IMG/VR virus record: IMGVR_UViG_3300017727_000005
Span: 1 to 63,636 of that record
DNA: 63,636 nt
Source: a virus
Strand: one strand, 5' to 3'
Shown: positions 14,732 through 56,244 of the stretch, piece after piece
How positions within the stretch are numbered: position 1 is the stretch's first letter
How the letters are laid out: each line of letters starts with the position of its first letter
Program-made: the position numbers and the translations under genes
Notes under the pieces: model-generated
The model's database searches: none
Seen by the model: the letters and a program-made list of their open reading frames with translations, nothing else
Told to the model about the DNA's origin: nothing

Positions 14732-15295
14732 ATGGCACATTTTGCGGAATTAGATAGTAACAAAAAAGTTTTAAGAGTAAACGTAGTAGATGACAGTAAT
14801 GTATCTGCTGATATGGCAGTTGACGGAGAAACTTGGTGTGCTAATAATATTTCTGAGGATCCTTCAATTGCATATGTAGATGGTGCTTATCCAGGTGTCG
14901 CATGGAAACAAACGTCATACAATCATAACTTTAGAAAAAGATTTGCATGTATTGATGGTTATTTTATTGATGATGGTGGTAATGGATACTTTACAGCAAT
15001 TAAACCACATTCTAATTGGGTATTAAGTTCAGTTGATGGTGCTTATTATGAACCAGTCGCACAACCAACTGTAACAACTTATGAAGATGGTGGTAAAACT
15101 TATGAGTATAATTTGAGTTGGGACCAAGACAATACAAGATGGATATGTCAAAAACTTAGGGAAAGTTCTCATCACGGTGGGTGGATAAGAAGTGCATTAG
15201 GTTCAGACGCAGATACGCCAGAAGTAATTACTTCTCCAACAACGGATCAAACAGTAGTAAGAATTTGGAACCCAGACGACAAAAGTTGGTCTTAA
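14732..15295 (+). CDS. Conserved fibre-cluster protein (MAHFAELD family)
   Basis: This 187-residue protein opens with MAHFAELDSNKKVLRVNVVDD and contains GVAWKQTSYNHNFRKRFACI and an aromatic, Trp-rich C-terminus. The pattern recalls small proteins (MAHFAKLD...) that recur beside fibre genes of marine T4-like phages, where the function is unassigned. It follows the Gly-rich gene by 13 bases with an AAGGAG ribosome-binding site. Its 3' end overlaps the convergent oxygenase gene by 4 bases, so no terminator fits between the two transcription units. A fibre assembly or virion role is inferred. Confidence 0.75.
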   Translation: MAHFAELDSNKKVLRVNVVDDSNVSADMAVDGETWCANNISEDPSIAYVDGAYPGVAWKQTSYNHNFRKRFACIDGYFIDDGGNGYFTAIKPHSNWVLSSVDGAYYEPVAQPTVTTYEDGGKTYEYNLSWDQDNTRWICQKLRESSHHGGWIRSALGSDADTPEVITSPTTDQTVVRIWNPDDKSWS

Positions 15296-15939
15296 TCTAA
15301 ATAATATTTAGCAATATGACCCGGTAAACCTAATACAGGTCTTCTATCAAATTTTAATTTTTTTGATTGAGGATCACTAGCGTCATTATAATGAAAGAAT
15401 ACTTGACCACAGATTTCGCCTTTAAATTCATCACGCCAATGTTCTAATTCACAACCACGATACATTAAACAATCACCTGGTTCTAAATCAACTTTAGTAC
15501 CTGGATTATTTGTACCACCTGTATTATCAACATAGATAGACCAAGGTTCACCACCTAAAAACATTGTAGCAGATATTTGACATGATGGTCTGTCTTTATG
15601 TCTTCTAAGTATATCACCATGTTTATATAATCTTGCATAAGTATATGTTTCAACAAGTTTATAGTCTATTTCTTTTTCTATAGTTTCTTTTTTTTCTGTA
15701 AGTATTGTGTCAAATAAAACATCACCATAATTTGCCCATGTATTCTTTACAGTAAGGTCATTCATATAACCATAATCTTCACTAAACGGAGATATTTGTT
15801 TATTTTCATGTAAGATATTAAATACTCTCCTTTTGTTTAATAAGTAACGATATCCTAATTCTGCCATTTCAGGACTAATTAAATTTTTTATTACTTGATA
15901 GTGTTTTTCTCTAAACATATTACCTTTCTCTATAGACAA
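15292..15939 (-). CDS. 2OG-Fe(II) oxygenase (array member 5)
   Basis: This 215-residue protein has the facial triad of the 2-oxoglutarate/Fe(II) dioxygenase fold. The HxD motif is H114-K-D116 in LRRHKDRPSCQ, and the distal histidine is H167 in ELEHWRDEF, after the PGDCLMY turn typical of the jelly-roll core. It is the last gene of a five-gene minus-strand operon and overlaps the preceding one by 20 bases. Substrates of phage members are unknown; peptidyl or nucleic-acid hydroxylation are both possible. The usual 2OG-binding Arg is not obvious, so a divergent cosubstrate site is possible. Confidence 0.8.
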   Translation of the reverse strand: MSIEKGNMFREKHYQVIKNLISPEMAELGYRYLLNKRRVFNILHENKQISPFSEDYGYMNDLTVKNTWANYGDVLFDTILTEKKETIEKEIDYKLVETYTYARLYKHGDILRRHKDRPSCQISATMFLGGEPWSIYVDNTGGTNNPGTKVDLEPGDCLMYRGCELEHWRDEFKGEICGQVFFHYNDASDPQSKKLKFDRRPVLGLPGHIAKYYLD

Positions 15940-16393
15940 AAAACGTCAAAGTCATTCTTGCATTTGTTATATTATCACCAAACGTATAATCTGGTGAATG
16001 TGTAATTTTTGAATTATATGCTACTAATTTATTGTATTTGTTTTCAATAATAGTTTGTATATTTTCTTTATTATATAGTATTGTACCAGAATTAGGTTTA
16101 GGATTAGGTGTAAGATATATTACACCTGCCCAATCAGATTTATCTGTATGTTTACTATATTTATCTTTAGTAATTATATCGCTTGTTTGATATGAAAAAT
16201 ACATTTCTACTTTAGCACGTTCTAAATTAAGTACCTCTAATATATCATTTGCAATAGTGTGATAATATTCTTCTGGTACATCTGCTCTAAACCCTCTATA
16301 AAAAGTGTTGTGTTCATTTGTTCTATATGTTGAGTTAAGTGCAACTTGCCTTACATCATTAACATTTTTTAAAAAGTTATTTTTGATCCACAT
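15920..16393 (-). CDS. 2OG-Fe(II) oxygenase, DUF6445-like (array member 4)
   Basis: This compact 157-residue protein has HxD at H82-T-D84 (KHTDKSDWAGVIYL), distal H132 (SKITHSPDY) and the 2OG-binding Arg at R146 (NARMTLTFF). All core residues of a 2OG-Fe(II) dioxygenase are therefore present. The short all-core architecture resembles the DUF6445-type family. It overlaps its upstream neighbour by 17 bases and its downstream neighbour by 20 bases, indicating translational coupling. The substrate is unknown. Confidence 0.8.
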   Translation of the reverse strand: MWIKNNFLKNVNDVRQVALNSTYRTNEHNTFYRGFRADVPEEYYHTIANDILEVLNLERAKVEMYFSYQTSDIITKDKYSKHTDKSDWAGVIYLTPNPKPNSGTILYNKENIQTIIENKYNKLVAYNSKITHSPDYTFGDNITNARMTLTFFVYRER

Positions 16394-16952
16394 AATCTCT
16401 AAAAGAAATCCAACCTGTTATAATATATTTTTCTTGTGTTAATGATGGTACACCTTTATGAGTATGAGTCCAACTTGCTGGCCAAATAAGTGTAAGACCT
16501 TTACGAGGTTGTATAATTCTTTTTTGATAAAAAAATTCAGTTTCACCTTCATCTGTTACATCATTTAAATAAGTCATAAAGACTAAGTGTCTTTTTGCCA
16601 TTGTTAAATCATTTGGATTATTAACATCTCTTTGCCAAGTATTTTCATAGTGCCAAATTTTAAAACCACCACCTGGTGGGTAATATTGTATGTTTGGACA
16701 TTCTAAAACATCATAATAATATTGGTCTTTGTCCGAAAATATATAAGTTTGTTTATATTTTTCAATACATACATTTAAATAATCATAATAATAAGGTATA
16801 TCTTTGCCAGCAACATCTATACTATCTTTAGTGTCTTTATCAATCATATCATAACCAGAAAGACCTTGTTTTTTCTTTCCGTTTTTGTGATGTTCAATAA
16901 GTCTATCACAAATACTATCGTCTATCTTATATTCACCTATAAACGTTGTCAT
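16377..16952 (-). CDS. 2OG-Fe(II) oxygenase, P4H-like (array member 3)
   Basis: This 191-residue protein has the prolyl-4-hydroxylase-like pattern QYYPPGGGFKIWHYEN. The metal ligands H101-Y-E103 use Glu in place of the usual Asp, a tolerated variant that may also change the chemistry. The distal histidine lies in WTHTHKG (H163 or H165) and the basic 2OG residue is probably K175 in EKYIITGW. TYLNDVTDEGETEFF matches the typical beta-hairpin of the family. It overlaps array member 2 by 4 bases (ATGA). Confidence 0.8.
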   Translation of the reverse strand: MTTFIGEYKIDDSICDRLIEHHKNGKKKQGLSGYDMIDKDTKDSIDVAGKDIPYYYDYLNVCIEKYKQTYIFSDKDQYYYDVLECPNIQYYPPGGGFKIWHYENTWQRDVNNPNDLTMAKRHLVFMTYLNDVTDEGETEFFYQKRIIQPRKGLTLIWPASWTHTHKGVPSLTQEKYIITGWISFRDYVDQK

Positions 16953-17515
16953 ACAATATTAAAATCCTTTAAATCAGTAACTACAAAATTACCAGCAACA
17001 CTATATCTTTCATTATTAGTTTTCATAACTTTATGAGGTAAACTAGATTTAAATATTAGTAGTGTACCTCTTTCTACTGGCATGTCAAAACTTTTCATAT
17101 TAAATATATTATATTTATCATACTTTGGGTCAAACAATTCTTCTTGCCCAAATGATTGAAACTGACAACTCATACCTTTATCTAAGTATAATACAAAACT
17201 ATACGTTGAGTTTTTATGATAGTGTACTTCGCCTTGTTGACCAGGTAAAAATTTAGTTCCCCACATTCTAGTCATTTTGATAGGTGTTTGAAAGAACATT
17301 ACATTATCATTAAATGCTTTTACTTGATGTTCTATATCTCTAGTTAAATCAGGTAGTCTATCCCATATCATATCATCTACAGATTGAAAACCATCAGGTT
17401 CTATTTGTTTATATTCTAAATCTTTTATTATCTGTATATCACTTTCGTGTATAGAAATTTTAGTAAATGCAAGAGGTTTAGCAAAAAGTGGTTGTATTTT
17501 TATTTCATCAAGCAT
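16949..17515 (-). CDS. Putative 2OG-Fe(II) oxygenase, HxH type (array member 2)
   Basis: This 188-residue protein resembles the 2OG-FeII_Oxy_5 type. The iron motif is H98-Y-H100 (EVHYHKNSTYSFVLYL), with distal H161 (SLPHKV) and R170 in ERYSVAGN. HxH replaces HxD/E, as in several members of this family, leaving an all-histidine metal site. It resembles the oxygenase at 40372 (EHTHSGDFSWVIYL). The gene begins 28 bases after member 1 and is coupled to member 3. Confidence 0.75.
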   Translation of the reverse strand: MLDEIKIQPLFAKPLAFTKISIHESDIQIIKDLEYKQIEPDGFQSVDDMIWDRLPDLTRDIEHQVKAFNDNVMFFQTPIKMTRMWGTKFLPGQQGEVHYHKNSTYSFVLYLDKGMSCQFQSFGQEELFDPKYDKYNIFNMKSFDMPVERGTLLIFKSSLPHKVMKTNNERYSVAGNFVVTDLKDFNIV

Positions 17516-17543
17516 GACTAATCTCTTATTTTACCGTAAAAAA

Positions 17544-18152
17544 TCATTTATATGGGTATCCTAAATTCCACATTACTAAACTATTTCTTGTACCAGATGT
17601 AACAGTTGTAACTCTATGAGTAACAAAAGACGGAAAGATACATATAGACCCTTTTGGTTTTATTTCATTACAAGTAAACTCACCATGTGGTGTTCTAAAC
17701 TGTAAATCACCACCCTCATATTCGTGTGGGTGATTTAGTTGTATTGTACATGATAATTTTCTTATCTTACCTTCATGTTGAGGGTGTCCGTTGTTATAAG
17801 GTTCAGCTTGTTGGTCAGCATGCCAATTATAATATTGATTTAATTTGTATCTTGTAAATTGTATAGTCTCAGAAAAGTCCCAATCAAAGTTCCAACCAGC
17901 TAGTCTATTTGCTTCGTGGACATATGGTTGTATTTCATTATAAATCCAAGGTTCTTCTAACCAAGATATATGACTGCTTCTATGCTGTTCGTTTTCTTTT
18001 TGTAACTCTTTGTTTACTTGTAGTTCCTCAGTATTCAGACCACCAGTGGAAGCAATAAGTTCTTGTTGATTGTTAGCAAAGCGTATAATATCATCACACA
18101 AATACTCAGGTATCACACTAGAATAATAATAATAGTAATTCTTTAATATCAT
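17544..18152 (-). CDS. 2OG-Fe(II) oxygenase, PiuC/PKHD-like (array member 1)
   Basis: This 202-residue protein is the most canonical of the array. HxD is H111-A-D113 (YYNWHADQQ), followed by LSCTIQLNHPHEYEGGDLQF, distal H179 (FPSFVTHRV) and the 2OG-binding Arg R189 in GTRNSLVMW. The spacing fits the PKHD-type hydroxylases common in marine phages. It is the first gene of the minus-strand array, and its start lies 32 bases from the divergent gp13 gene. The tiny divergent region holds a late-type promoter for gp13; no convincing minus-strand promoter is visible. Confidence 0.85.
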   Translation of the reverse strand: MILKNYYYYYSSVIPEYLCDDIIRFANNQQELIASTGGLNTEELQVNKELQKENEQHRSSHISWLEEPWIYNEIQPYVHEANRLAGWNFDWDFSETIQFTRYKLNQYYNWHADQQAEPYNNGHPQHEGKIRKLSCTIQLNHPHEYEGGDLQFRTPHGEFTCNEIKPKGSICIFPSFVTHRVTTVTSGTRNSLVMWNLGYPYK

Positions 18153-18184: not shown

Positions 18185-19012
18185 ATGGCACAAAATAATC
18201 CAATAACTAGTAGAGAAACACTTAAACAATACTGCCTAAGAGCATTAGGTAAACCTGTTATTGAAATCAATGTAGAAGATGACCAAGTAGAAGATAGAAT
18301 AGACGAAGCAGTACAATACTTTGCTCAGTATCATTATGACGGTTCTGAAAGAATGTATTTAAAATATCAAGTTACACAAGATGATATTGATAGAGCAAGA
18401 GCAAATGAAACATTAACTACAGTCACAGATACAGCAGATTCCACAGTAACAGCAAGTTTTAAAGAAGGTAAGAATTATATACCTATGCCTTCAAATGTAA
18501 TGTCAGTATTACAAGTATTTCCTTTTACAGACAAAGCGGCATTAAATTTATTTGATGTCAGATATCAATTAAGATTAAATGACTTGTATGATTTTTCATC
18601 TACAAGTATTATACACTACGATATGACATTAAGACATTTAGATATGTTAGACCATATTCTAACAGGTGAAAGACCAGTTAGATACAATCAACACAAAAAC
18701 AGATTGTATATAGATATGGATTGGGCACATGATGTTAAAGCAGGTGACTTTATGATTATAGAATGCTATCGTAAATTAGACGGTTCAACATTTACTGATT
18801 TGTTTGATGATATATTCTTAAAAAAATATTTAATTCAATTAATCAAAAAACAATGGGGTACAAACTTATCTAAATTCCAGGGAGTTGCAATGCTGGGTGG
18901 TGTTCAAATGAATGGTGAACAAATTTACTCTCAAGCACAAGATGAAATCAACAAACTAGAAGAACAAATACAGTTAAGTTTTGAATTACCACCAAATTAT
19001 ATGGTAGGTTAA
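18185..19012 (+). CDS. 13: Neck protein gp13
   Basis: This 275-residue protein matches the T4 neck protein gp13 family: an N-terminal helical region (SRETLKQYCLRALGKPVIEINVEDD), a central beta region, and the conserved KKYLIQLIKKQWGTNLSKF helix. gp13 forms the ring that closes the portal after packaging and docks the tail. It opens the conserved 13-14-15-16-17 order. gp14 follows 3 bases after its stop. Confidence 0.9.
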   Translation: MAQNNPITSRETLKQYCLRALGKPVIEINVEDDQVEDRIDEAVQYFAQYHYDGSERMYLKYQVTQDDIDRARANETLTTVTDTADSTVTASFKEGKNYIPMPSNVMSVLQVFPFTDKAALNLFDVRYQLRLNDLYDFSSTSIIHYDMTLRHLDMLDHILTGERPVRYNQHKNRLYIDMDWAHDVKAGDFMIIECYRKLDGSTFTDLFDDIFLKKYLIQLIKKQWGTNLSKFQGVAMLGGVQMNGEQIYSQAQDEINKLEEQIQLSFELPPNYMVG

Positions 19013-19015
19013 TAA

Positions 19016-19888
19016 GTGAAAAATACATATTTCTCACACGGTACACACTCAGAAAAAACTCTCTATGAAGATTTAATCATAGAGCAGTTAAAAATATTTG
19101 GGCATGAAGTACACTATCTTCCTAGAACAACTGTAACGGAAGATAAAATATTAGGTGAAACGCCTGATAGTAAGTACACAGAAGCATATCAAATAGAAAT
19201 GTACATAGAAGACGTGAACGGTTTTGCCGGTCAAGGTGACTTGATTGGTAAGTTTGGTTTAGATATGAAAGACGAAATAACTTTCGTTGTTAGCAGACGT
19301 TCATTTGAGTTATTAGTTGACCAACCATCAAATACAATTTCAATAAACAGACCTAGAGAAGGTGACATTATTTACATGCCAACCTTTAAGAAATTCTTTC
19401 AAGTAGATTTTGTTGAAGATGAGGATCCAATGTATCAGATTAATGATTTACCTATCTTCAAACTTAAATCATCTGTTTGGGATTACTCACATGAATTAGT
19501 TGATACAGGTATTACTGAGATTGATGAAAAATTAGAAGACGAGAATTTAGATTTATTACAAAATCAAATAACACTAGAGATTGGTACAACATCTTCAGGT
19601 GCTTTACTTGCTGAAGTAACTGATGGTAATGTTGAGGCATTGTTAGCAGAAACAGGTGATTTAATTGTTGATGAAGTTGACGGTGACAATATTATCCTTG
19701 AGGATGACCCTCAATATGTTGACTATATAGTGTTAGAAGATAGCAACACAACAAACATGGCGGCTGATAGACCAGGCGCTGACAATATATCTTTTGATGA
19801 TGAAGCAGGATTAAACGATACAGACGCAAGTAACGATATCTTTGACTTCACAGAAAAGAATCCATTTGGTGACCCAAGTGACTTATAA
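19016..19888 (+). CDS. 14: Neck protein gp14
   Basis: This 290-residue protein starts at GTG 19016, three bases after the gp13 stop. The N-terminus (KNTYFSHGTHSEKTLYEDLIIEQLKIFG) and the segments GQGDLIGKFGLDMKDEITF and FVVSRRSFELL are typical of gp14, which forms the neck ring with gp13 and connects head and tail. The C-terminal third is acidic and Asp-rich (residues ~220-290) and looks lineage-specific. No ATG gives full-length homology, so the GTG start is preferred. Confidence 0.9.
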   Translation: MKNTYFSHGTHSEKTLYEDLIIEQLKIFGHEVHYLPRTTVTEDKILGETPDSKYTEAYQIEMYIEDVNGFAGQGDLIGKFGLDMKDEITFVVSRRSFELLVDQPSNTISINRPREGDIIYMPTFKKFFQVDFVEDEDPMYQINDLPIFKLKSSVWDYSHELVDTGITEIDEKLEDENLDLLQNQITLEIGTTSSGALLAEVTDGNVEALLAETGDLIVDEVDGDNIILEDDPQYVDYIVLEDSNTTNMAADRPGADNISFDDEAGLNDTDASNDIFDFTEKNPFGDPSDL

Positions 19889-19898
19889 GGAGTAAATA

Positions 19899-20714
19899 AT
19901 GTTTAAAGACGCACAATACCATGAACTAATTAGAAAAACGATAGTAGCGTTTGGTACATTGTTTAATGATTTGTACATATATCGTAGAGCGAGTACAGGA
20001 AAAATAAATCAAAAGATGAAAGTTCCACTTGCATACGGACCAAAACAAAAGTTCTTAGCTAGAATTGACCAAGATAGTACAAGAGGTGCTGATGATGTAA
20101 AAACAACGGCACTTACTTTACCACGAATTGGTTTTGAATTAACAGGTCTTACATATGACCCTAGCAGAAAACTAAATCGTATTCAAAAGTTTAAGAAAGT
20201 AAAAGGCGCAGATACTAAGTCAATGACTAATGTTTATATGCCTGTACCTTACAACGTTTCATTTACATTGTTTACTATGGCAAAAAATAGTGAAGACGCT
20301 TTACAAATTGTAGAACAAATATTACCAATGTTTCAACCTGACTATACAGTATCATTAAATGTAATGCCAAGTTTAGATATCGTAAGAGACGTTCCAATTA
20401 TTCTTAATGATGTAACATATGAAGACAGTTATGACGGAACTTTTACAGACAGACGAGTTTTAATGTACACTCTATCGTTTACAGCGAAGATGTATTTATA
20501 TGGACCTGTTTCAAGTACGAAAGTTATTAAACAAGTACAAGTAGACCAATATACAAACACAAGCACAGCAACGGCAAAAAGAGAACAACGATATGTTGTT
20601 ACTCCTAATCCTACAACTGCTGACGCTGATGATGATTTTGGTTTTAGTGAAACACGTTCTTTCTTCCAGGATGCTGACGAATATGATCCTGAAAGTGGTA
20701 CTGATAAACAATAA
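19899..20714 (+). CDS. 15: Tail sheath stabiliser / completion protein gp15
   Basis: This 271-residue protein begins MFKDAQYHELIRKTIVAFGTLF and contains PLAYGPKQKFLARIDQD, PRIGFELTGLTYDPSRK and the Arg-containing DRRVLMYTLSFTAKMYLYG region. All are recognisable gp15 features. gp15 caps the tail, stabilises the last sheath ring and joins it to the neck. A GGAG ribosome-binding site lies at 19889-19892. The C-terminal ~50 residues are acidic and variable. Confidence 0.9.
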   Translation: MFKDAQYHELIRKTIVAFGTLFNDLYIYRRASTGKINQKMKVPLAYGPKQKFLARIDQDSTRGADDVKTTALTLPRIGFELTGLTYDPSRKLNRIQKFKKVKGADTKSMTNVYMPVPYNVSFTLFTMAKNSEDALQIVEQILPMFQPDYTVSLNVMPSLDIVRDVPIILNDVTYEDSYDGTFTDRRVLMYTLSFTAKMYLYGPVSSTKVIKQVQVDQYTNTSTATAKREQRYVVTPNPTTADADDDFGFSETRSFFQDADEYDPESGTDKQ

Positions 20715-20732: not shown

Positions 20733-21146
20733 ATGAAAAAAGTTGAGGATAAACTCAATGAGTTATTGGATATAACTGAAACTAAACAAGAGATTGTTCA
20801 ATCTACACCTGCTGTACCTAGACCTAATGAAAAAGAAGATATCACTAGTGATTATAAGTACAGTAGGGAAAACCTATATAACTTAGTAGAAAGAGGACAA
20901 GACGCAATAGATGGCATATTGACACTTGCAAAAGAAACAGACCATCCTAGAACATATGAAGTTGCAGGTCAATTAATTAAGAACGTGGGAGAAGTAACTG
21001 AAAAGTTACTACAGTTACAAGAGAAGATGAAAAAGTTAGGGGAAGAAACAAAAAAAGGACCTAGCAAAGTTGAAAATAATCTCTTTGTTGGGAGTACAGC
21101 AGAATTGCAGAAACTAATAAAAGATAATAAGAATGAAGACGGATAA
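20733..21146 (+). CDS. 16: Terminase small subunit gp16
   Basis: This 137-residue, almost entirely helical protein fits the T4 gp16 family. It has an acidic N-terminus, then YSRENLYNLVERGQDAIDGIL, AGQLIKNVGEVTEKLLQLQEKM and a C-terminal NNLFVGSTAELQKLI segment. gp16 oligomers recognise concatemeric DNA and stimulate the gp17 ATPase. The gene overlaps the inserted halogenase gene by 14 bases rather than abutting gene 17 directly. Confidence 0.87.
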   Translation: MKKVEDKLNELLDITETKQEIVQSTPAVPRPNEKEDITSDYKYSRENLYNLVERGQDAIDGILTLAKETDHPRTYEVAGQLIKNVGEVTEKLLQLQEKMKKLGEETKKGPSKVENNLFVGSTAELQKLIKDNKNEDG

Positions 21147-22524
21147 AAAAATATTAATAATTGGTGGTGGTACTGCTGGTTGGTTGACTGCCTTATATCT
21201 AACTAAAACTTTTCCTCAACATCATATTACATTAATGGAAAGTAAACCTATTGGTATCTTAGGTGCAGGTGAAGGTAGCACACCACATCTAACTTCTTTT
21301 TTACATATGTTAGATGTAGATTTACAAGAGTTGTTAAAAGAATGTAAAGGTACAATCAAACAAGGTATATCTTTTGAAAACTGGAATGGAGATGGTCAAA
21401 AATATTTTCATCCTTTTGCAGTACATAATGAATATAAACATTTTAGTATAGACAATTTGTTTAGTTATGATAGTTATGATTATTATTTAAAACATTTAAT
21501 TCACAAAAAAATGCCTTTGAAAGACCATACTTATGCGTCTATACAATCATATAAGAATGTTGTTGATACAAATAATATAGATACCTCTATACACTTTGAC
21601 GCACATCTTTTAGCAGATTATCTTAAAAAAATTACCAAAGTTGATAAACATATCTATGATGAAATTAAAACTACGAAACAAGATGAACATGGTAATATAA
21701 CTAAAATAAATGATATAGAATGTGATTTAGTTTTTGATTGCACAGGTTTTCGTAGAGAGTTAATTGGTAAGTTATATAAGTCAGAATGGAAAAGTTATCA
21801 GGATTGTTTACCAATTAAGAGAGCAATACCTTTCTTTCTACCACCTGAAGATAAACCTTACACACAAGCAATTGCAATGAAATATGGTTGGGTGTGGAAG
21901 ATACCTTTACAACATAGATGTGGTGCAGGTTATATATTTGATAGTGATTATATAACAGACGAAGAAGCATTTGCTGAAGCAAAAGAAATGTTTCCTAATA
22001 TAGAATATACAAGAACAATAAAGTTTGACGCAGGTAGATTTAAACAAACATGGATAAAAAATTGTATTGCAGTAGGTTTATCTTCTGGTTTTACAGAACC
22101 ACTTGAAGCAACATCTATTTGGATGGCAACTGAACAATTAAAATTACTTGAAACATTTATTGACGTTATGTTTACAAATGATGAAGATACTAAAAAAGAT
22201 TATAACGAAGTAATTGCAAATAATAACGATATGGTTATGGAGTTTTTACACTATCACTATATGACTAAAAGAGACGATAGTCCTTTTTGGAAAGAGTTTA
22301 GAAAGAAAAATGTTTTAGCTAAGTTTAATGCTAAGTTAGAACAAATACAAAAAGGTAATCTAAGATGGTATCATACAACAGGCGGAAAACTTACATCAAC
22401 ATTTAATCTTATGTCATGGTTACATGTAGGCGAAGGTCAAGGTCTTATTAAAGATATAAGTATTGAAGGATATGAAAACTTAAACCCAACAGTAGAAGAA
22501 TATGGCAGACACTTACCTAGGTAA
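21133..22524 (+). CDS. Flavin-dependent tryptophan-halogenase homologue between terminase genes
   Basis: This 463-residue protein has the tryptophan 7-halogenase architecture. An N-terminal FAD-binding Rossmann motif (IIGGGTAGW, residues 9-17) is followed by GEGSTPHL. K76 in GTIKQGISFENW aligns with the catalytic Lys79 of PrnA. The family signature WxWxIP is present as GWVWKIP, and E325 in TEPLEATS aligns with PrnA Glu346. PrnA's adjacent Ser347 is replaced by Ala326. The gene overlaps 16 by 14 bases and 17 by 23 bases, so it is embedded in the packaging operon. Halogenation needs FADH2 from a partner reductase, none of which is visible here. Substrate and actual halogenating activity are unknown. 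Confidence 0.85.
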   Translation: MKTDKKILIIGGGTAGWLTALYLTKTFPQHHITLMESKPIGILGAGEGSTPHLTSFLHMLDVDLQELLKECKGTIKQGISFENWNGDGQKYFHPFAVHNEYKHFSIDNLFSYDSYDYYLKHLIHKKMPLKDHTYASIQSYKNVVDTNNIDTSIHFDAHLLADYLKKITKVDKHIYDEIKTTKQDEHGNITKINDIECDLVFDCTGFRRELIGKLYKSEWKSYQDCLPIKRAIPFFLPPEDKPYTQAIAMKYGWVWKIPLQHRCGAGYIFDSDYITDEEAFAEAKEMFPNIEYTRTIKFDAGRFKQTWIKNCIAVGLSSGFTEPLEATSIWMATEQLKLLETFIDVMFTNDEDTKKDYNEVIANNNDMVMEFLHYHYMTKRDDSPFWKEFRKKNVLAKFNAKLEQIQKGNLRWYHTTGGKLTSTFNLMSWLHVGEGQGLIKDISIEGYENLNPTVEEYGRHLPR

Positions 22525-24139
22525 TCCTAATTTAAAAGCGGCTAATCAAAAGATACGTTTTACAAAAAAACAAGTAAGAGAGTTTCTTGCTTGTCAGGAG
22601 AATCCTGTTTACTTTATAGAAAACTACATTAAGATTGTTACACTAGACCACGGTCTACAACAATTCAAAATGTATAACTTTCAAAAAGAAATGGTAGATA
22701 CTTTCCATGATAATCGTTTTAGTATTTGTAAACTACCAAGACAGACTGGTAAGTCAACAACAATTATATCTTATCTATTACATTATGCTATTTTTAACGC
22801 AAACACAAATATTGCCATACTTGCAAACAAAGCTGCGATTGCAAGAGACCTATTAGGTCGTTTACAACTTGCATATGAGAATTTACCTAAGTGGTTACAA
22901 CAAGGTGTTATAAACTGGAACAAAGGTAGTTTAGAATTAGAAAATGGTAGTAGAATACTTGCAGCTGCTACATCATCAAGTGCCGTACGGGGTGGTTCTT
23001 ATAATGTAATATTCTTAGATGAGTTTGCTTATGTACCAAATAATATTGCAGAACAATTTTTTAGTTCAGTTTATCCTACAATATCTTCTGGTAAAAGTTC
23101 TAAAGTAATGATTGTATCTACACCACATGGTATGAATATGTTTTATAAAATGTGGAATGACGCAACAAACAAACGAAATAGTTATGTACCTATTGAAGTG
23201 CATTGGTCAGAGGTACCTGGTAGAGACGAAAAGTGGAAAGATGAAACAATAAAGAACACAAGTGAACAACAGTTTAGAACGGAGTTTGAATGTGAGTTTT
23301 TAGGTAGTGTAGATACATTAATTAATAGTGCTAAGTTAAGAACGTTATCACATAACACACCAATACAGTCTAACGCAGGTTTAGATATACACGAAATGCC
23401 TATTAATGGTCATAGATATGTTGTTACAGTTGATGTTGCAAGAGGTACAGTCAATGACTATTCTGCCTTTATAGTTACAGACGCAAGTCAAATACCTTAC
23501 AAAGTAGTTGCGAAGTATAAGAACAATGAAATTAAACCTTTAATCTTTCCTCAAGTAATTCATAAGATTGCAAAGTCATATAACAATGCAGAAATATTAG
23601 TTGAAGTAAATGATATTGGTGGTCAAGTTGCAGACACTTTACAGTTTGATTTAGAATATGACAATCTTATTATGGTTAATCAAAGAGGTCGTTCTGGTCA
23701 GATTGCAGGTACAGGATTTAGTGGTAAGAAATCACAACTAGGATTGCGTACAACTAAGGCGACAAAGAAAATAGGTTGTTCAAATTTAAAAGCAATGATA
23801 GAATTAGATAAGTATATAATCCAAGATTTTGATGTAATCGCAGAATTATCAACTTATGTATTAAAAGGTAAAGAAAAATACGAAGCAGAGGAAGGTAGTT
23901 CAGACGACTTAGTGACTTGCCTTGTTATGTTTGCCTGGTTGTCAAACCAAATGTATTTTAAAGAGCTAACAGACCAAGATATACGAGCAAGACTTGTAGA
24001 TGAACAACAAAATCAAATGGACCAAGACATGGCACCATTTGGATTTGTAGATGACGGAATAGAAAGTCCTGAAGGAGAAACATATAAGGACCCACATGGG
24101 ACTAGTTGGAGTCCTGTCAAATACAAGAGAGGTTGGTAA
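22502..24139 (+). CDS. 17: Terminase large subunit gp17
   Basis: This 545-residue DNA-packaging motor has an ATPase domain with Walker A RQTGKST (residues 80-86, K84) and Walker B VIFLDE (169-174). The SSAVRGGSY region and the coupling motif STPHG are also present. The nuclease domain has the RNase H-fold acidic residues in VTVDVARG (D311), VEVNDIGG (E368, D371) and the C-terminal SSDDLV. The start overlaps the halogenase by 23 bases; the N-terminus (ADTYLGNPNLKAANQKIRFTKKQV) fits phage homologues. It translocates DNA into proheads through the portal gp20. Confidence 0.95.
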   Translation: MADTYLGNPNLKAANQKIRFTKKQVREFLACQENPVYFIENYIKIVTLDHGLQQFKMYNFQKEMVDTFHDNRFSICKLPRQTGKSTTIISYLLHYAIFNANTNIAILANKAAIARDLLGRLQLAYENLPKWLQQGVINWNKGSLELENGSRILAAATSSSAVRGGSYNVIFLDEFAYVPNNIAEQFFSSVYPTISSGKSSKVMIVSTPHGMNMFYKMWNDATNKRNSYVPIEVHWSEVPGRDEKWKDETIKNTSEQQFRTEFECEFLGSVDTLINSAKLRTLSHNTPIQSNAGLDIHEMPINGHRYVVTVDVARGTVNDYSAFIVTDASQIPYKVVAKYKNNEIKPLIFPQVIHKIAKSYNNAEILVEVNDIGGQVADTLQFDLEYDNLIMVNQRGRSGQIAGTGFSGKKSQLGLRTTKATKKIGCSNLKAMIELDKYIIQDFDVIAELSTYVLKGKEKYEAEEGSSDDLVTCLVMFAWLSNQMYFKELTDQDIRARLVDEQQNQMDQDMAPFGFVDDGIESPEGETYKDPHGTSWSPVKYKRGW

Positions 24140-37310: not shown

Positions 37311-37868
37311 ATGAAAAATACACAACCAATCAAGGTTCCTAAAAAGAAAGAGCATTATGTCTCTAATAAAGAATTTTTAGTTGCCATGAAAGAATATAAA
37401 TTAAAGTGTATAGCGGCAGAAAAGAAAAAGAAACCTAGACCACCAATAACTGATTACATTGGTGAGTGTTTTCTAAAGATTGCTAATCATTTATCATATA
37501 GACCAAACTTCATTAATTACACTTATAAAGAAGATATGATATCTGATGGTATAGAAAATTGTTTACAATATGTTTCTAACTTTGATCCAACAAAATCAAA
37601 TAATCCATTTGCTTACTTTACACAAATAATATACTACGCATTTATAAGAAGAATCCAAAAAGAAAAGAAACAAACAATTATTAAACAGAAACTAATAATG
37701 AAGTCTGGTTTAGATGAGTTAGTTTCACAAGAAGCAGATAATACAGAATATCAAAACGCATATGCTGACTTTTTAAGAAAGAATATGGTAGAGATAGCAC
37801 CTGATAAACCAAAAGAAAAGAAACCAAGGAAGAAAAAAGTATCTAAACTAGAATACTTTATGCAATGA
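37311..37868 (+). CDS. 55: Late-transcription sigma factor gp55
   Basis: This 185-residue protein is the same length as T4 gp55. It contains the sigma-region-2-like core: YKEDMISDGIENCLQYVSNFDPTKSNNPFAYFTQIIYYAFIRRIQKEKK. gp55 lets host RNA polymerase recognise TATAAATA late promoters, stimulated by the gp45 clamp. Many such promoters are present in this window. The C-terminus is Lys-rich. The gene overlaps the second halogenase homologue by 4 bases (ATGA). Confidence 0.92.
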   Translation: MKNTQPIKVPKKKEHYVSNKEFLVAMKEYKLKCIAAEKKKKPRPPITDYIGECFLKIANHLSYRPNFINYTYKEDMISDGIENCLQYVSNFDPTKSNNPFAYFTQIIYYAFIRRIQKEKKQTIIKQKLIMKSGLDELVSQEADNTEYQNAYADFLRKNMVEIAPDKPKEKKPRKKKVSKLEYFMQ

Positions 37869-39355
37869 AAAATATTATAGTTGTGGGTGGTGGTAGTGCA
37901 GGCTGGATGTCAGCAGCTACACTCATTCGTACCTTTCCTGATAAAAATATAACTGTAATAGAAAGTCCAGATGTATCTACAGTTGGTGTAGGTGAAAGTA
38001 CATTAGGTCATATCAATGGTTGGTTAAATTATCTCAACATTGAAGACAAAGACTTTATGCCTTACTGTGACGCTAGTTATAAGTTATCAATTAAATTTAC
38101 AGACTTCTATAAAAAAGGTGCAGGTTCATTTCATTACCCATTTGGCAGACCATATTATTGGGACGATAAAGAAAGAAACAAATGGTACTTTAGAAAACAA
38201 TTATTAAATTTACCTAATAGTGATTATGCTGAGTGCATGTCACCCAATGTATTAATTTCTAATGCTAATAAAATAAGTGATATTAATGATATTTTACCTA
38301 ACTACAATTTTAAAACAGATACCGCTTATCATTTTGACGCCACTAAATTTGGTTTATGGTTAAAAGAACATTATTGTTTACCAAGAGGTGTGAAACATGT
38401 ATTAGAAAATGTAAATCTTGTACAACAAAATGATAATGGTGTATCACATATCAATTCACATGAATGTGATTTAGTCATAGACTGTACAGGTTTTAAATCT
38501 ATGATATTAAATAAAGTTGGTGGTGATTTTATATCTTACAATGATATATTACCTAATGATAGTGCATGGGCAACAAGAATGCCATACACAAACAAAGAAC
38601 AACAACTAGAACCATATACAAATTGTACGGCGATAGATAATGGTTGGGTGTGGAATATACCTAGTTGGGAAAGAATTGGTACTGGTTATGTTTATTCAAG
38701 TAAATATATCAATGATGATGACGCATTAATACAATTTAAACAATACTTAGGTAGAGACGATTTAGAATTTAAAAACATCCGTATGAGAGTTGGCAGACAA
38801 AAAGAAATGTGGATAAAAAATGTATGTTCAATTGGTTTATCTGCCGGATTTATAGAACCATTAGAGAGCACAGGTCTTTTACAAACACATACGTTTATAA
38901 TGAAACTAGTATCTAATTTAGAACGAGGTGATTTTTCACAATGGGATAGAGACACACACAACTTAGAGTGTAATAGTATTTTTGATGAGTATGTTACATT
39001 TGTTGCCATGCATTATGCCTTATCATTAAGAGACGATACACCATATTGGCAAGATGTAAGAAAAAGAAGTTTGGTACATTTAAAAGAAGTACAATCTTTA
39101 ATGAATGCCAAAATGCAAGATTACTATTTTAACCCATTAGGTGGTATGCATTATATAGCAACAGGTTTAAATTGGCAGGCAGTATCATTATTAGATGTAG
39201 AACAATTATTGTATGACCCGGATACAAAAGAGATAAACGAAGAATGGACAAATCATTTAGAACAAAACAAACAAGATTGGCAAAAAATAGTAAATACTAT
39301 GCCATCTTTATATCAATATTTAAAAGACAACATATATGAAAATCGCCCTAGTTAA
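37865..39355 (+). CDS. Second flavin-dependent tryptophan-halogenase homologue
   Basis: This 496-residue protein has the FAD motif VVGGGSAGW (residues 6-14) and GVGESTLGH. K73 in ASYKLSIKF aligns with PrnA Lys79. The family motif is GWVWNIP, and IEPLEST contains E334 and S335, equivalents of PrnA Glu346/Ser347. All landmark residues of flavin-dependent tryptophan halogenases are thus present, more completely than in the copy at 21133. It is coupled to gp55 (4-base overlap) and gp47 (20-base overlap). Free tryptophan, a peptide or another aromatic could be the substrate; none can be assigned. Confidence 0.87.
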   Translation: MKNIIVVGGGSAGWMSAATLIRTFPDKNITVIESPDVSTVGVGESTLGHINGWLNYLNIEDKDFMPYCDASYKLSIKFTDFYKKGAGSFHYPFGRPYYWDDKERNKWYFRKQLLNLPNSDYAECMSPNVLISNANKISDINDILPNYNFKTDTAYHFDATKFGLWLKEHYCLPRGVKHVLENVNLVQQNDNGVSHINSHECDLVIDCTGFKSMILNKVGGDFISYNDILPNDSAWATRMPYTNKEQQLEPYTNCTAIDNGWVWNIPSWERIGTGYVYSSKYINDDDALIQFKQYLGRDDLEFKNIRMRVGRQKEMWIKNVCSIGLSAGFIEPLESTGLLQTHTFIMKLVSNLERGDFSQWDRDTHNLECNSIFDEYVTFVAMHYALSLRDDTPYWQDVRKRSLVHLKEVQSLMNAKMQDYYFNPLGGMHYIATGLNWQAVSLLDVEQLLYDPDTKEINEEWTNHLEQNKQDWQKIVNTMPSLYQYLKDNIYENRPS

Positions 39356-40379
39356 CGACACACATTTTGGATGTCGTAATGACAATCCAAATTACCATGA
39401 ATACATGTATAAGTTTTGGCAAAAACAATTCTTTCCATACTTAGAACAAAACGATATCAAAACAATTATTCATTTAGGTGATATATTAGATAGACGTAAG
39501 TATGTAAACTTTAAAACACTTACTGATTTTAATAATAAGATAGTAAGTCAATTTAAGAAATATGATACACACTTTATAGTAGGTAACCATGATACCTATT
39601 ACAAGAACACAAATGAAGTAAACGCACCTAAAGAATTGTTAAGTCAGTTTAAAGTTTATTCAGACCCACAAAAGATTACAATTGCAGGACATGATATATT
39701 GATTATACCATGGGTAACACCTGAAAACTACGATAGAACTAAAATGATGTTAGAACAAGAAACAGCAGACATTGTTATGGGTCATTTAGAGATTAAAGGT
39801 TTTGAAATGCATACTGGACATCATTCAGATGTAGGTGTAGAAAAAGAAATGTTTAAAAGATTTGAAACAGTATTATCTGGTCACTTTCATAAGAAATCAG
39901 ATGATGGTCATATATTTTACCTTGGTTGTCAATATGAAATGACTTGGTCAGATTATAAATGTCCTAAACACTTTCACATTTACGATACAGAAACAAGAGA
40001 ACTTACACCAATACGAAACCCTTTAACAATACATCATAAAATATATTACAATGATGAAACTACAGATTATAAGAACTTTGATTTTAATGAATGTAATAAC
40101 AAATACATTAAACTTATAGTAGAAAAGAAATCAGACTACTTTATGTTTGATAAATTTGTTGATGATATTTACCAAAAGTCTAATGTATATGATTTAAAAA
40201 TTATAGAAGATTATTCAGACTTAGACGCTTCAACAGTAAATGATGATATAGTTGAAAAGACGGAAGATACACCAACTTTACTTGATACCTATATAGAACA
40301 AACAGATACGAATTTAAATAAAGATAGATTAAAAACCTTAATGAAAAGTTTATATACGGAGGCATTTGACTATGAGTAA
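39336..40379 (+). CDS. 47: SbcD-like recombination nuclease gp47
   Basis: This 347-residue calcineurin-type phosphoesterase has the metal-binding motifs NDTHFG (D8, H10), GDILDRR and GNHD, then GHLEIKG and SGHFHKK. It pairs with gp46 as the Mre11/Rad50-type complex that resects DNA ends for recombination-dependent replication and helps degrade host DNA. Genes 47 and 46 are separated here by an inserted oxygenase gene. The start lies inside the 3' end of the halogenase gene. Confidence 0.93.
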   Translation: MKIALVNDTHFGCRNDNPNYHEYMYKFWQKQFFPYLEQNDIKTIIHLGDILDRRKYVNFKTLTDFNNKIVSQFKKYDTHFIVGNHDTYYKNTNEVNAPKELLSQFKVYSDPQKITIAGHDILIIPWVTPENYDRTKMMLEQETADIVMGHLEIKGFEMHTGHHSDVGVEKEMFKRFETVLSGHFHKKSDDGHIFYLGCQYEMTWSDYKCPKHFHIYDTETRELTPIRNPLTIHHKIYYNDETTDYKNFDFNECNNKYIKLIVEKKSDYFMFDKFVDDIYQKSNVYDLKIIEDYSDLDASTVNDDIVEKTEDTPTLLDTYIEQTDTNLNKDRLKTLMKSLYTEAFDYE

Positions 40380-41085
40380 TTACGACCACAAATATGAATA
40401 TAAAAATATGTACTTTGGTCCTTACATCTATCATTGTAAATTAGACCCACAATTTTGTAAAGATTTATTAGAACAAGGTGATAAAACTACAGATAGATAT
40501 TTACAAGAAGACGGTACATATACTAATCAAATTATTAAAGATAGTTTAGCAGGTGATTTAAAAACAGGACATGAAAGACAATTTGATGGCAAACAACAAA
40601 GATGGTTTAATAAAAGTTTAAAAGATGTGTTTACACATTATACAAAAGAACGTATGAACTTTCATAACTATATTTTTGTACCAGATTATGTAATAGAGAA
40701 CGTATGGATTAATTATCAACATGCCAATGAATATCAACCTGAACATACACATTCTGGTGACTTTAGTTGGGTAATCTATTTACAGATACCAGAGGGCATG
40801 AAAGCAGAAAGAGAAAATTATAAAAAGAAAGGTCCTGGTCCTGGTTGTATTGCATTTAGTTATGGCGAGACAAGTGGCAATCCAGATGTAACTTTTCCTT
40901 GGGTAACAAATATTCACATGGGAGTACCTGAAGCAAATGAAATGTATATCTTTCCGTCTCAGTTAAAACATGCTGTGCCACCATTTAAGTGTGATGGTGT
41001 AAGAATATCAGTAAGTGGTAATGGTGCGTTTCAAAGACCAGATAGTAAACTATATGTTATGGGAGAAAAAAGATACGAAGTATGA
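40372..41085 (+). CDS. 2OG-Fe(II) oxygenase inserted between genes 47 and 46
   Basis: This 237-residue protein starts at ATG 40372, nine bases after GGAGG and inside the end of gene 47; a TTG at 40366 is in frame but less likely. The metal motif is H125-T-H127 (QPEHTHSGDFSWVIYL), with distal H200 (SQLKHAVPPF) and R211 (GVRISVSG), as in 2OG-FeII_Oxy_5 proteins. It overlaps both neighbours, so it is expressed with the recombination nuclease. It resembles array member 2 at 16949. The substrate is unknown. Confidence 0.8.
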   Translation: MSNYDHKYEYKNMYFGPYIYHCKLDPQFCKDLLEQGDKTTDRYLQEDGTYTNQIIKDSLAGDLKTGHERQFDGKQQRWFNKSLKDVFTHYTKERMNFHNYIFVPDYVIENVWINYQHANEYQPEHTHSGDFSWVIYLQIPEGMKAERENYKKKGPGPGCIAFSYGETSGNPDVTFPWVTNIHMGVPEANEMYIFPSQLKHAVPPFKCDGVRISVSGNGAFQRPDSKLYVMGEKRYEV

Positions 41086-43816: not shown

Positions 43817-45073
43817 ATGGCAGAAAAAATTATAGACCCTTTATTAGAAAAGCAATGGGAGACCTTTCAACAAGAAAACCCTACACCTTACGAACATATA
43901 GATACAAACGAACTTAAAGAACGTTTAATTACTGAACTAGGTTATGTGTCTGGTATGACGGTAGAAGAATATACGTTATATCAAAAATGGTGTGAAGTTA
44001 AAAACAAGTATCCTGCTCAGACAGTAAACACTTTATTTGGCGAAGAAAGTCAATTAGTAGATTTATCAAAAGACAAACTATTAACTCATGTAAAGAACAA
44101 TATATGGTCACCTCAGGATCCTATGGATTTTGAGAAGTTACAACCAGAACTAATCTATACAAAAGATAGTCCAGAATTACCACAATTGTGGAACGCAATA
44201 AGAACATTTGCCTCTACAATGAAAAACAATAACAATATAGGTCGTAATCTAAACTTTATAGTAAGAGATAAACCAACAAAGAAATATCTAGGTGTCATTT
44301 GTATATCAAGTGACTTTTTAGATTTAACACCTAGAGATAGTTACATAGGTTGGGATAGAGAACGTAAAACTAAAAAGATGATTAATCACACGGCGATAGG
44401 TAGTACGATTGTGCCACTACAACCACTAGGTTATAATTACACAGGTGGTAAGTTACTTGCGTTGATGTGTTTATCAGATAAAGTACAAGAGACATGGAAA
44501 AAAGAATATGGCGATACAATGGTTGGTGTTACAACTACAAGTTTATATGGTAGTTTTAGTCAATATCAAAATTTAAGACATTGGAAGAAAAGAGGTCATA
44601 GTGCAGGTAGTGTATCATACGAAGCAACAAAACCTACTATTCAAATGTTAAGAAAGTGGATTATGGAAAATCACACCAGAAAATACTTTGAATGGTATAG
44701 TGCTACAAAACCTACAGGTCAACCATATAAGAGAGACCACAGAAATAGAAGTCATACATTTGCATATAGTAAACTAGGTATACCAAAAGAGTTAACAAAG
44801 TCAGACCACAGTAGAGGTATCTATTTTTCCACACTATATGATAATACAAGAGAATTTTTACGAGAAGAAATACCTGAAGATAAACTAGTCAAAAGTTTTG
44901 AGAGTAGCGTTGACGCATTATCAGAATTATGGCGAGAACGTTATGCTAGAAAGCGTATTAAATCATTGATTGACCAAACAAGGACAAACATGGAGACGCT
45001 TTACTATGATGACTTGATACATTTAACATGGGAAGAAACCAAGGAAAAGTATCTAAAACAGGTAGGAAGATAA
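43817..45073 (+). CDS. DruA/DUF4338-like protein, copy 1
   Basis: This 418-residue protein has a central block (residues ~145-250) resembling DUF4338, the DruA protein of Druantia defence islands. It contains LNFIVRDKPTKKYLGVICISS, RDSYIGWDRER, then IVPLQPLGYNYTGGKLLA and VTTTSLYG. No nuclease or ATPase motif is visible, and no DruE-like helicase is present. A second, more divergent copy is encoded at 56241. Phage use (defence, counter-defence or a housekeeping role) is unknown. Its own early promoter suggests expression at the start of infection. Confidence 0.65.
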   Translation: MAEKIIDPLLEKQWETFQQENPTPYEHIDTNELKERLITELGYVSGMTVEEYTLYQKWCEVKNKYPAQTVNTLFGEESQLVDLSKDKLLTHVKNNIWSPQDPMDFEKLQPELIYTKDSPELPQLWNAIRTFASTMKNNNNIGRNLNFIVRDKPTKKYLGVICISSDFLDLTPRDSYIGWDRERKTKKMINHTAIGSTIVPLQPLGYNYTGGKLLALMCLSDKVQETWKKEYGDTMVGVTTTSLYGSFSQYQNLRHWKKRGHSAGSVSYEATKPTIQMLRKWIMENHTRKYFEWYSATKPTGQPYKRDHRNRSHTFAYSKLGIPKELTKSDHSRGIYFSTLYDNTREFLREEIPEDKLVKSFESSVDALSELWRERYARKRIKSLIDQTRTNMETLYYDDLIHLTWEETKEKYLKQVGR

Positions 45074-53766: not shown

Positions 53767-56244
53767 ATGCGAGATTTTTATACTAATGTTTCACCTTACG
53801 GCGATGAATTACTTGTCCGTGGTTTTCAAAACGGAGAGAGATTTGAAGATAGACTACATTATGTACCTTCAATTTATCATCCTTACAAATCACCTGGCAA
53901 AACAAAGTACAAGTCACTAGACGGTACTCCACTTGTTGCTCGTAAATGTAAAACTGTCAAAGAAGCAAGAATGCTTATCAAACGGTATGAAGAGCATCCT
54001 AATTTTATATACGGGACAGATAGATGGCAATATCAATACATTGCTGACTATTATCAAGGTACAGTAGAATACGACAAAAGCAAATTACGAATTTATACAA
54101 TAGATATTGAAGTAGAAAGTGAACATGGATTTCCTAATCCAGATGACGCTGACGAAAAAATGATTTGTATTACAATTAAAGACCAAATTAAAAAATCTAT
54201 ATTAGTTTGGGGTCTTGCTGATTATACAGTTAAACAAAAGAATGTTAATTATATTAAATGTAAAGATGAAAAAGATTTACTTAAAAACTTCTTAGGTTTC
54301 TGGAAACAATATACGCCAGATATTCTAACAGGTTGGAATAGTAAATACTTTGATGTACCTTATCTTATTAATAGAACTAAAAAAGTATTAGGCGAACACT
54401 CAATTAAAAGATATTCGCCATGGGATATTGTTGACGAAGACAAAGCATATCATAACGGTAGACAAGTTACATTTTTTAGATTGTTAGGTATTGCACAACT
54501 TGACTATCTACAACTCTATGCTAAATTTACAATTAAGAACCAAGAACGATATACACTTGACCATATTGCATTTGTAGAACTTGGCGAACAAAAAGATAAA
54601 AACCCATATGACACTTTTAAAGAATGGTATCAAAATGATATACAATCTTTTATTGATTATAATATTGTTGATGTAGAACTAGTTGATAAACTAGAAGATA
54701 GATTACAACTGATTGAGCTTGCAATCACTATGTCTTATAATGCAAAAGCAAACTTTGAAGATGTATTCTCACAAGTTAGAATGTGGGACACAATCATATT
54801 CAACGAATTATTAAAAGATGATATTATTGTACCAATGAGAAAGATTGGTAGTATTCAAGCAAAAGAACTTGTAGGTGCATATGTTAAGGATCCTAAAGTA
54901 GGTTTCCATGATTGGGTTGTATCGTTTGACTTGAACTCACTATATCCACATTTGATTATGCAATACAATATTAGTCCTGAAACTATACTACCAGAACAAA
55001 AAGATATATTGATTGATGACTTACTTGAAAAGAAAGTTGACACGTCTGACGGTAACTGTATTGCTGCCAATGGCACAATGTATAAACGAGACGTACAAGG
55101 TATGTTGCCACGAATTATACAAAAAGAATATAACGATAGAGTTATTTACAAAAAGAAAATGTTAGAAGCAGAACAAATGTATGCTAACACAAAAGATAAG
55201 AAGTATGAAAAACTGGCAAGAAAGTTTTATATCATACAACACTCTAAAAAAATATCCTTGAATAGTGCTTATGGTGCAATTGGTAACAAATACTTTAGAT
55301 ATTATGACCATAGACAAGCAGAAGCGATTACTATGTCTGGTCAATTAAACATTAAATGGATTGAAAAAAGATTAAACGAATACTTTAACAAGTTATATAA
55401 TACAGATGATGATTATATCATTGCGTCTGATACAGATAGTGTGTACATCAATATGGCACCACTTGTTAAGATGACAGGTGCAACTGATAAAGATAAAATT
55501 GTAAAAGCATTAGACACATTTTGTAGTGAAAGACTAGAACCATATATTGCAAAAGTATATAAAGAACTTGGCGATTATATGAACGTTAGTGAAAACAAAA
55601 TGGTTATGAAACGAGAGGCGATTGCTGATAGAGGTATCTGGACTGCCAAGAAAAGATATGTTCTAAATGTTCATAATTCTGAGGGTGTTCAATATTCTGA
55701 ACCTAAACTTAAAATTATGGGCATTGAAGCAGTAAAAACTTCAACGCCATTACCTGTTAGAGAAAAGTTAAGAGAGAGTTTTAAAATATTAATGTCTGGT
55801 AATGAAACACAAATGAAAGACTTTGTAATAAAATTTAAACGTGACTTTGAACATATGACGCCAGAACAGATTGGTTTCCCTCGTAGTATTAACAACATAG
55901 AAAAATATTCTGACACAACATCTATATACAAGAAAGGTACACCAATGCATGTCAAAGGTGCATTGTTATATAATCACTTATTAAAAACTAATAAAGTGGC
56001 ACATAAGTACCAACGAATATACAATGGCGATAAAGGTAAGTTTGTACATCTAAGAAAGAATATATGGAATGCAAATGTAATTACTTTCATTGCAGATTTG
56101 CCAAAAGAATTTGATATGCATAAAATTATAGATTATGATTTACAGTTTAATAAATCATTTATGGAACCATTACGATTTATACTTGAAGCAATCAAGTGGC
56201 GAGTTGACGCAAGCGAAACAAGTAACCTAGAGGATTTCTTTTGA
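53767..56244 (+). CDS. 43: DNA polymerase gp43
   Basis: This 825-residue family B polymerase has exonuclease motifs TIDIEVE (D113, E115), TGWNSKYFDVPYL and YNIVDVELV. The polymerase motifs are A DLNSLYP (D388), B KKISLNSAYGAIGN and C ASDTDSVYI (D555, D557). The C-terminus carries a clamp-binding tail (NLEDFF). MRDFYTNVSPYG matches the T4 start (MKEFYIS), so ATG 53767 is chosen over the in-frame TTG at 53761. Both proofreading and polymerase sites are intact. Confidence 0.97.
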   Translation: MRDFYTNVSPYGDELLVRGFQNGERFEDRLHYVPSIYHPYKSPGKTKYKSLDGTPLVARKCKTVKEARMLIKRYEEHPNFIYGTDRWQYQYIADYYQGTVEYDKSKLRIYTIDIEVESEHGFPNPDDADEKMICITIKDQIKKSILVWGLADYTVKQKNVNYIKCKDEKDLLKNFLGFWKQYTPDILTGWNSKYFDVPYLINRTKKVLGEHSIKRYSPWDIVDEDKAYHNGRQVTFFRLLGIAQLDYLQLYAKFTIKNQERYTLDHIAFVELGEQKDKNPYDTFKEWYQNDIQSFIDYNIVDVELVDKLEDRLQLIELAITMSYNAKANFEDVFSQVRMWDTIIFNELLKDDIIVPMRKIGSIQAKELVGAYVKDPKVGFHDWVVSFDLNSLYPHLIMQYNISPETILPEQKDILIDDLLEKKVDTSDGNCIAANGTMYKRDVQGMLPRIIQKEYNDRVIYKKKMLEAEQMYANTKDKKYEKLARKFYIIQHSKKISLNSAYGAIGNKYFRYYDHRQAEAITMSGQLNIKWIEKRLNEYFNKLYNTDDDYIIASDTDSVYINMAPLVKMTGATDKDKIVKALDTFCSERLEPYIAKVYKELGDYMNVSENKMVMKREAIADRGIWTAKKRYVLNVHNSEGVQYSEPKLKIMGIEAVKTSTPLPVREKLRESFKILMSGNETQMKDFVIKFKRDFEHMTPEQIGFPRSINNIEKYSDTTSIYKKGTPMHVKGALLYNHLLKTNKVAHKYQRIYNGDKGKFVHLRKNIWNANVITFIADLPKEFDMHKIIDYDLQFNKSFMEPLRFILEAIKWRVDASETSNLEDFF

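Follow-up and report, generated by a model that had tools for sequence, protein, structure and literature searches.

A flavin-dependent halogenase as probable exchangeable cargo between the terminase genes of an HTVC008M-like Pelagibacter phage

Genes 16 and 17 are adjacent in T4, and the presence of a halogenase gene between their counterparts, terS and terL, raises the question of whether this gene is a settled part of the packaging operon or a passenger, and whether it still encodes a working enzyme. The locus is located in a 63.6-kb virus record, referred to in its whole length as the window (Table 1), which is closely related to Pelagibacter phage HTVC008M (98% identity for TerL and 93% for the halogenase). 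The first-pass annotation of a complete halogenase homologue overlapping both terminase genes was confirmed by the ORF coordinates; residues 6-440 match Pfam PF04820 (359 bits, E 4.8e-107), and the gene matches PHROG 2928 "tryptophan halogenase" at 452 bits. Together with gp13, gp14, and gp15, the terS, halogenase, and terL genes constitute one closely packed run, with gaps of 3-18 bp in its gp13-gp15 part.

Table 1. Features of the window referred to in this study.
Feature	Coordinates	Strand	Assignment or remark
Flavin-dependent halogenase (cargo gene), 463 aa	21133-22524	+	PF04820; PHROG 2928
terS (gp16, terminase small subunit)	20733-21146	+	PF11053; phrog_445, 1.1e-51
terL (gp17, terminase large subunit)	22502-24139	+	Terminase_6N/6C, PF03237/PF17289
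terS/halogenase overlap, 14 bp	21133-21146	+	Halogenase start codon inside the last terS codons (junction alignment)
Halogenase/terL overlap, 23 bp	22502-22524	+	
gp13, gp14, gp15 (neck, tail-sheath stabiliser)	18185-20714	+	PHROGs 211, 460, 227
Five-gene minus-strand cluster inside the plus-strand structural module	15292-18152	-	2OG-Fe(II) oxygenase (three genes), DUF6445 protein, unassigned protein
Second halogenase	37865-39355	+	VirX1 clade; PF04820, 331 bits
2OG-Fe(II) oxygenase between gp47 and gp46	40366-41085	+	Overlaps both neighbours
Two DruA-domain ORFs	43817-45073; 56241-57365	+	PF14236, 74 and 39 bits

The terS-terL interval and its contents

The assumption that genes 16 and 17 usually sit side by side does not hold for much of this phage family, in which terS-terL gaps of 2-10 kb occur in a published hypervariable region that is occupied in many marine relatives. 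The position "between gp16 and gp17" has been described as a variable-gene hot-spot (Sullivan et al., 2010; PMC3037559), where its first identification is credited to Millard (2009), and it was drawn as a hypervariable region in a 2016 review (PMC4928673). Judged from matched tblastn positions, the interval is approximately 2 kb in HTVC008M and Melnitz, 2.8 kb in Sf-CH5, 3.4 kb in S-T4, 4.2 kb in P-TIM68, 7-8 kb in S-B43 and S-B05, and 9.7 kb in S-SCSM1; it is short (~0.2 kb) in Mosig.

IMG/VR relatives of the window TerL, which are mostly metagenomic contigs and include several fragments, were classed by their content between terS and terL. Among close relatives (TerL 83-98% identical) the junction is empty, contains a 2OG-Fe(II) oxygenase gene (2OG) together with the halogenase, as in the isolate HTVC008M, or contains 2OG only, and the window itself carries the halogenase only. 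One well-supported TerL clade of 24 rows includes 10 empty, nine 2OG plus halogenase, three halogenase-only, and two 2OG-only junctions. At least 11 state changes are required on the TerL tree, and the empty allele is present in at least 23 contigs. Beyond that clade, the slot holds genes encoding PAP2-family proteins, adenylate kinase, 2-hydroxyacid dehydrogenase, nuclease, F5/8-type-C and laminin-G (lectin-like) proteins, and a tail fibre. Halogenase genes are also found on the other side of terS (gp15-halogenase-terS) in other phages, including the phage contig L089, and belong to three separate lineages in the halogenase tree. Because related viruses fill, swap, or empty the same spot with other genes or none, the halogenase is a passenger gene in a known variable site and no fixed part of the packaging machinery. 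A cellular origin was considered and provisionally set aside, as one scan of genome contigs gave only six loci, all in metagenome-assembled or uncultured genomes.

Overlaps, deletions, and allele history

Although the overlaps of 14 and 23 bases are real, the earlier conclusion that they signify stable embedding is contradicted by the alternative alleles. As a special sign of embedding they were rejected, since, over the first 49 kb of the window, 13 of the 39 neighbours on the same strand overlap and such overlaps alone are unremarkable. One group of empty alleles has a terS that reads ...AAAAATGGAAAAGACATATCTAGGTAA, ending 23 bp inside terL; in other empty alleles terS ends 11 bp inside terL. 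The window halogenase stops at the same AGGTAA as terS of the former group, with its ATG within the 3' end of terS. Three cargo genes share the 14-bp terS overlap, namely the window halogenase, the HTVC008M-type 2OG gene, and the tail-fibre gene of cyanophage P-TIM68, which begins with it (L097:1574-1587). The overlaps are therefore a property of the slot, not proof of stability, and are presumably kept for translational coupling.

A search of related genomes for the same insertion showed that HTVC008M shares the halogenase, yet empty, 2OG-only, and scar alleles were recovered as well. Contig L109 (TerL 87% identical) is arranged as terS-2OG-terL and, compared with L021, which carries both 2OG and halogenase, lacks 1353 nt (451 codons, in frame). 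The first and last halogenase codons are fused there into a scar of 19 codons, MDTMANKINEDYERLIHVR and stop; this scar allele occurs in three contigs from three metagenomes, so that a lineage without the halogenase also argues against stable embedding. The window differs from L012 by 568 missing nt, with the 2OG gene gone and the halogenase start moved onto the terS ATG. Since this junction recurs in three further contigs and the window-type halogenases nest within a 2OG-bearing clade of the halogenase tree, the simplest reading is that the window lineage once had a halogenase and 2OG-Fe(II) oxygenase pair and then lost the oxygenase, which HTVC008M still has, by the 568-bp deletion. In some relatives, an empty junction may be the ancestral condition and not a loss. 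As far as the literature searched shows, the anatomy of the junction, its alternative alleles, and the scar left in frame are new.

With its start codon within the 3' end of terS and its stop codon 23 bp into terL, the halogenase is probably made late, alongside the packaging proteins, via coupled translation. Plus-strand TATAAATA sites were identified at positions 2964, 5174, 8637, 10557, 10566, 24151, 26780, and 49691. As a total, eight sites do not exceed chance; all of them lie no more than 150 bp ahead of a gene start, a zone comprising 11.7% of positions, and this placement would be as expected of T4-type late promoters. One site is just past terL and none is within the gp13-terL run.

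Predicted substrate and integrity of the enzyme

The halogenase has a FAD motif, GGGTAG, at residues 11-16 that agrees with GxGxxG, and WVWKIP at 253-258 agrees with the WxWxIP signature. The catalytic Lys (K76) and Glu (E325), whose presence accords with PF04820 variant A, are conserved in 86/86 and 85/86 relatives, respectively, in an 86-sequence alignment, which bears out the earlier description of these residues and of the signature as intact. An AF2 model (mean pLDDT 93.2; four rows from GenBank records were left out of the input) superimposes on SttH over 444/463 residues (VIA-align, Z 50.5, rmsd 2.0 Å), indicating a full-length halogenase fold. Structural modelling had been proposed as a check for a blocked halide tunnel or FAD site, and the whole fold of the model answers it only in part.

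Two features would suit a genuine L-tryptophan halogenase of the PrnA/PyrH kind, one that converts the free amino acid into halotryptophan inside infected cells: the solved structures closest in fold are those of Trp 5- and 6-halogenases (VIA-align, Z ~50), and H93 and F95 of the HPF motif, residues that touch the indole ring in Trp halogenases (PMC8269204, PMC5945002), are kept and near invariant among relatives. However, a profile alignment to five PDB sequences (column counts) identified neither YYHGFxxYS, the Trp-anchoring loop motif of Trp halogenases (motif table, PMC8269204), which is replaced by GGKLTSTFNLMSW, nor the Tyr and Glu residues that anchor tryptophan by its amino and carboxyl groups (compared with PMC8269204 and PMC5945002), represented in RebH by Y454, Y455, and E461 (PMC5945002). 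Thal, PyrH, and PrnA have Lys-Glu-Ser, and the window enzyme has A326 in place of the Ser that follows the catalytic Glu in Trp halogenases. BrvH, which lacks the same anchors, accepts indole and refuses tryptophan (PMC5945002), and VirX1 is likewise without the lid and has a broad substrate scope (PMC7948982). With the residues gripping its amino and carboxyl groups missing, free tryptophan is probably not the substrate, and an L-tryptophan halogenase is unlikely; because the YYHGFxxYS loop is lacking, the substrate is probably another electron-rich aromatic. In light of BrvH and VirX1, "tryptophan halogenase" is, on this alignment, a family name and makes no statement on substrate.

The place of the gene in the late structural run would be accounted for if the enzyme halogenated peptides or proteins and, together with phage 2OG oxygenases, tailored a protein of the virion or of the host envelope. 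The position of the gene within that run, its repeated pairing with 2OG oxygenases, the alignment of the lanthipeptide Trp halogenase MibH to the model (Z 38.6), and the suggestion of the BrvH authors that its open pocket may accept large substrates (PMC5945002) agree with this proposal, which nevertheless appears doubtful: slot position tells little about function because unrelated enzymes (PAP2, adenylate kinase, dehydrogenase) are housed there too, and relatives without the halogenase retain the same structural genes. Under a simple null model, 18 of 52 clusters have a 2OG gene immediately upstream of the halogenase versus 7.3 expected, with no excess downstream in the same clusters. Phage halogenase genes adjoin a carbamoyltransferase gene in L042 and sulfotransferase-like genes in L033 and L049 (weak matches, below the Pfam cut-off), and such neighbours hint at tailoring chemistry. 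It is quite improbable that the halogenase and its 2OG partner, elsewhere with carbamoyltransferase or sulfotransferase genes, form a late system halogenating and hydroxylating a peptide, protein, or envelope component; if true, it would represent a new kind of phage-made modification. Additional 2OG-Fe(II) oxygenase genes are present elsewhere in the window, and the minus-strand cluster containing three of them differs in gene content from HTVC008M. Protection of the host or stabilisation of metabolites by phage-made halogenated compounds was speculated by earlier authors (PMC2984593, PMC10452541).

The Ser-to-Ala change beside the Glu that was singled out in the first-pass annotation is present but not peculiar to this gene. 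Because the residue after the catalytic Glu is Ala in 60 of 86 relatives and Ser in 26, A326 is normal in this viral subfamily, and the change was rejected as a mark of decay. The dN/dS of the halogenase is 0.20-0.28 versus group members, indicating purifying selection (0.06-0.16 for the neighbours terS, terL, gp13, and gp15), and the frame is open and full-length in those group contigs spanning the gene. Given these values and the confident model (pLDDT 93, Z ~50), the window halogenase is probably a working FADH2/O2/halide-dependent enzyme; no assayed enzyme of this viral subfamily was found in the literature. The halogenase of phage S-PM2 (L003:4998-6473) may be inactive because Gln replaces its catalytic Glu (EPLQATS). 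A decayed or non-catalytic flavoprotein, retained for another role or by drift, is very unlikely for the window gene, since the alanine next to Glu, the loss of the gene from close relatives, and the Gln-bearing S-PM2 relative are outweighed by the conserved K76 and E325, the low dN/dS, the open frame, and Ala being the norm of the subfamily.

We thus favour, at a probability of roughly 0.8, an enzymatically competent flavin-dependent halogenase carried as exchangeable cargo in the hypervariable gp16-gp17 slot of an HTVC008M-like Pelagibacter phage, a reading based on homology, motifs, position, alternative site states, and selection, from which we infer expression timing, reaction, and substrate class. 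The enzyme would draw FADH2 from a flavin reductase of the host and would consume O2 together with bromide or chloride from seawater; hypohalous acid would form at the flavin and travel through the tunnel to K76/E325, where an electron-rich aromatic held by H93, F95, and W429 would be halogenated. The benefit to the phage would most likely be the chemical alteration of a peptide or small molecule inside infected cells. Phage halogenases are widespread in the ocean, and this locus offers for comparison a close relative in culture (HTVC008M on Pelagibacter ubique HTCC1062) and natural alleles that either have or lack the halogenase, the in-frame deletion among them. Where essential genes meet at this presumably translationally coupled junction, cargo is exchangeable, with start and stop overlaps retained.

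Comparison with known systems

The gene is a real viral halogenase of an already published kind, probably active, and its location is a published hotspot. Its direct orthologue, which shares 93% identity and occupies the same terS-terL interval, is the HTVC008M halogenase (I899_gp079, NC_020484); unlike the window, HTVC008M has a 193-aa 2OG-Fe(II) oxygenase between terS and the halogenase. In the literature searched, no paper links HTVC008M with a halogenase, and the text of the pelagimyophage survey never mentions one.

VirX1 of cyanophage Syn10 (PDB 6QGM), the first characterised viral halogenase, shares the fold of the window gene (Z 37.4, rmsd 3.0 over 440) and its motifs, with K and E conserved, and both are without the Trp-halogenase lid or loop motif. 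VirX1 differs in sequence (~28% identical), clade, genome position, and the Ser beside Glu. The second halogenase of the window, which belongs to the VirX1 clade, is flanked by a gp55-like late sigma factor gene (4-bp overlap) and gp47/SbcD (20-bp overlap). HTVC008M is without it and has a 42-aa ORF (gp100) there, which was rejected as a halogenase deletion scar because it is an unrelated lipoprotein-like peptide. The relatives L177 and L179 have no terS-terL halogenase yet keep the second one at 60-77% identity. The window also encodes two DruA-domain ORFs, and no other Druantia genes were recognised among the window ORFs scanned.

The indole-active enzymes BrvH and Xcc4156 align to the model over 442-444 residues (Z 47.5-47.6). 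BrvH, whose pocket is open, and the window gene keep the indole-contact residues and lack the amino-acid anchors, whereas BrvH and Xcc4156 are 28% identical to the window gene and are bacterial chromosomal enzymes.

The T4-like cyanophage gp16-gp17 region (Millard, 2009, cited in PMC3037559 and PMC4928673) is the same interval with variable metabolic cargo. Different from that region, the Pelagibacter-phage clade of the window has small cargo with start and stop overlaps with both terminase genes, and its empty and scar alleles are traceable.
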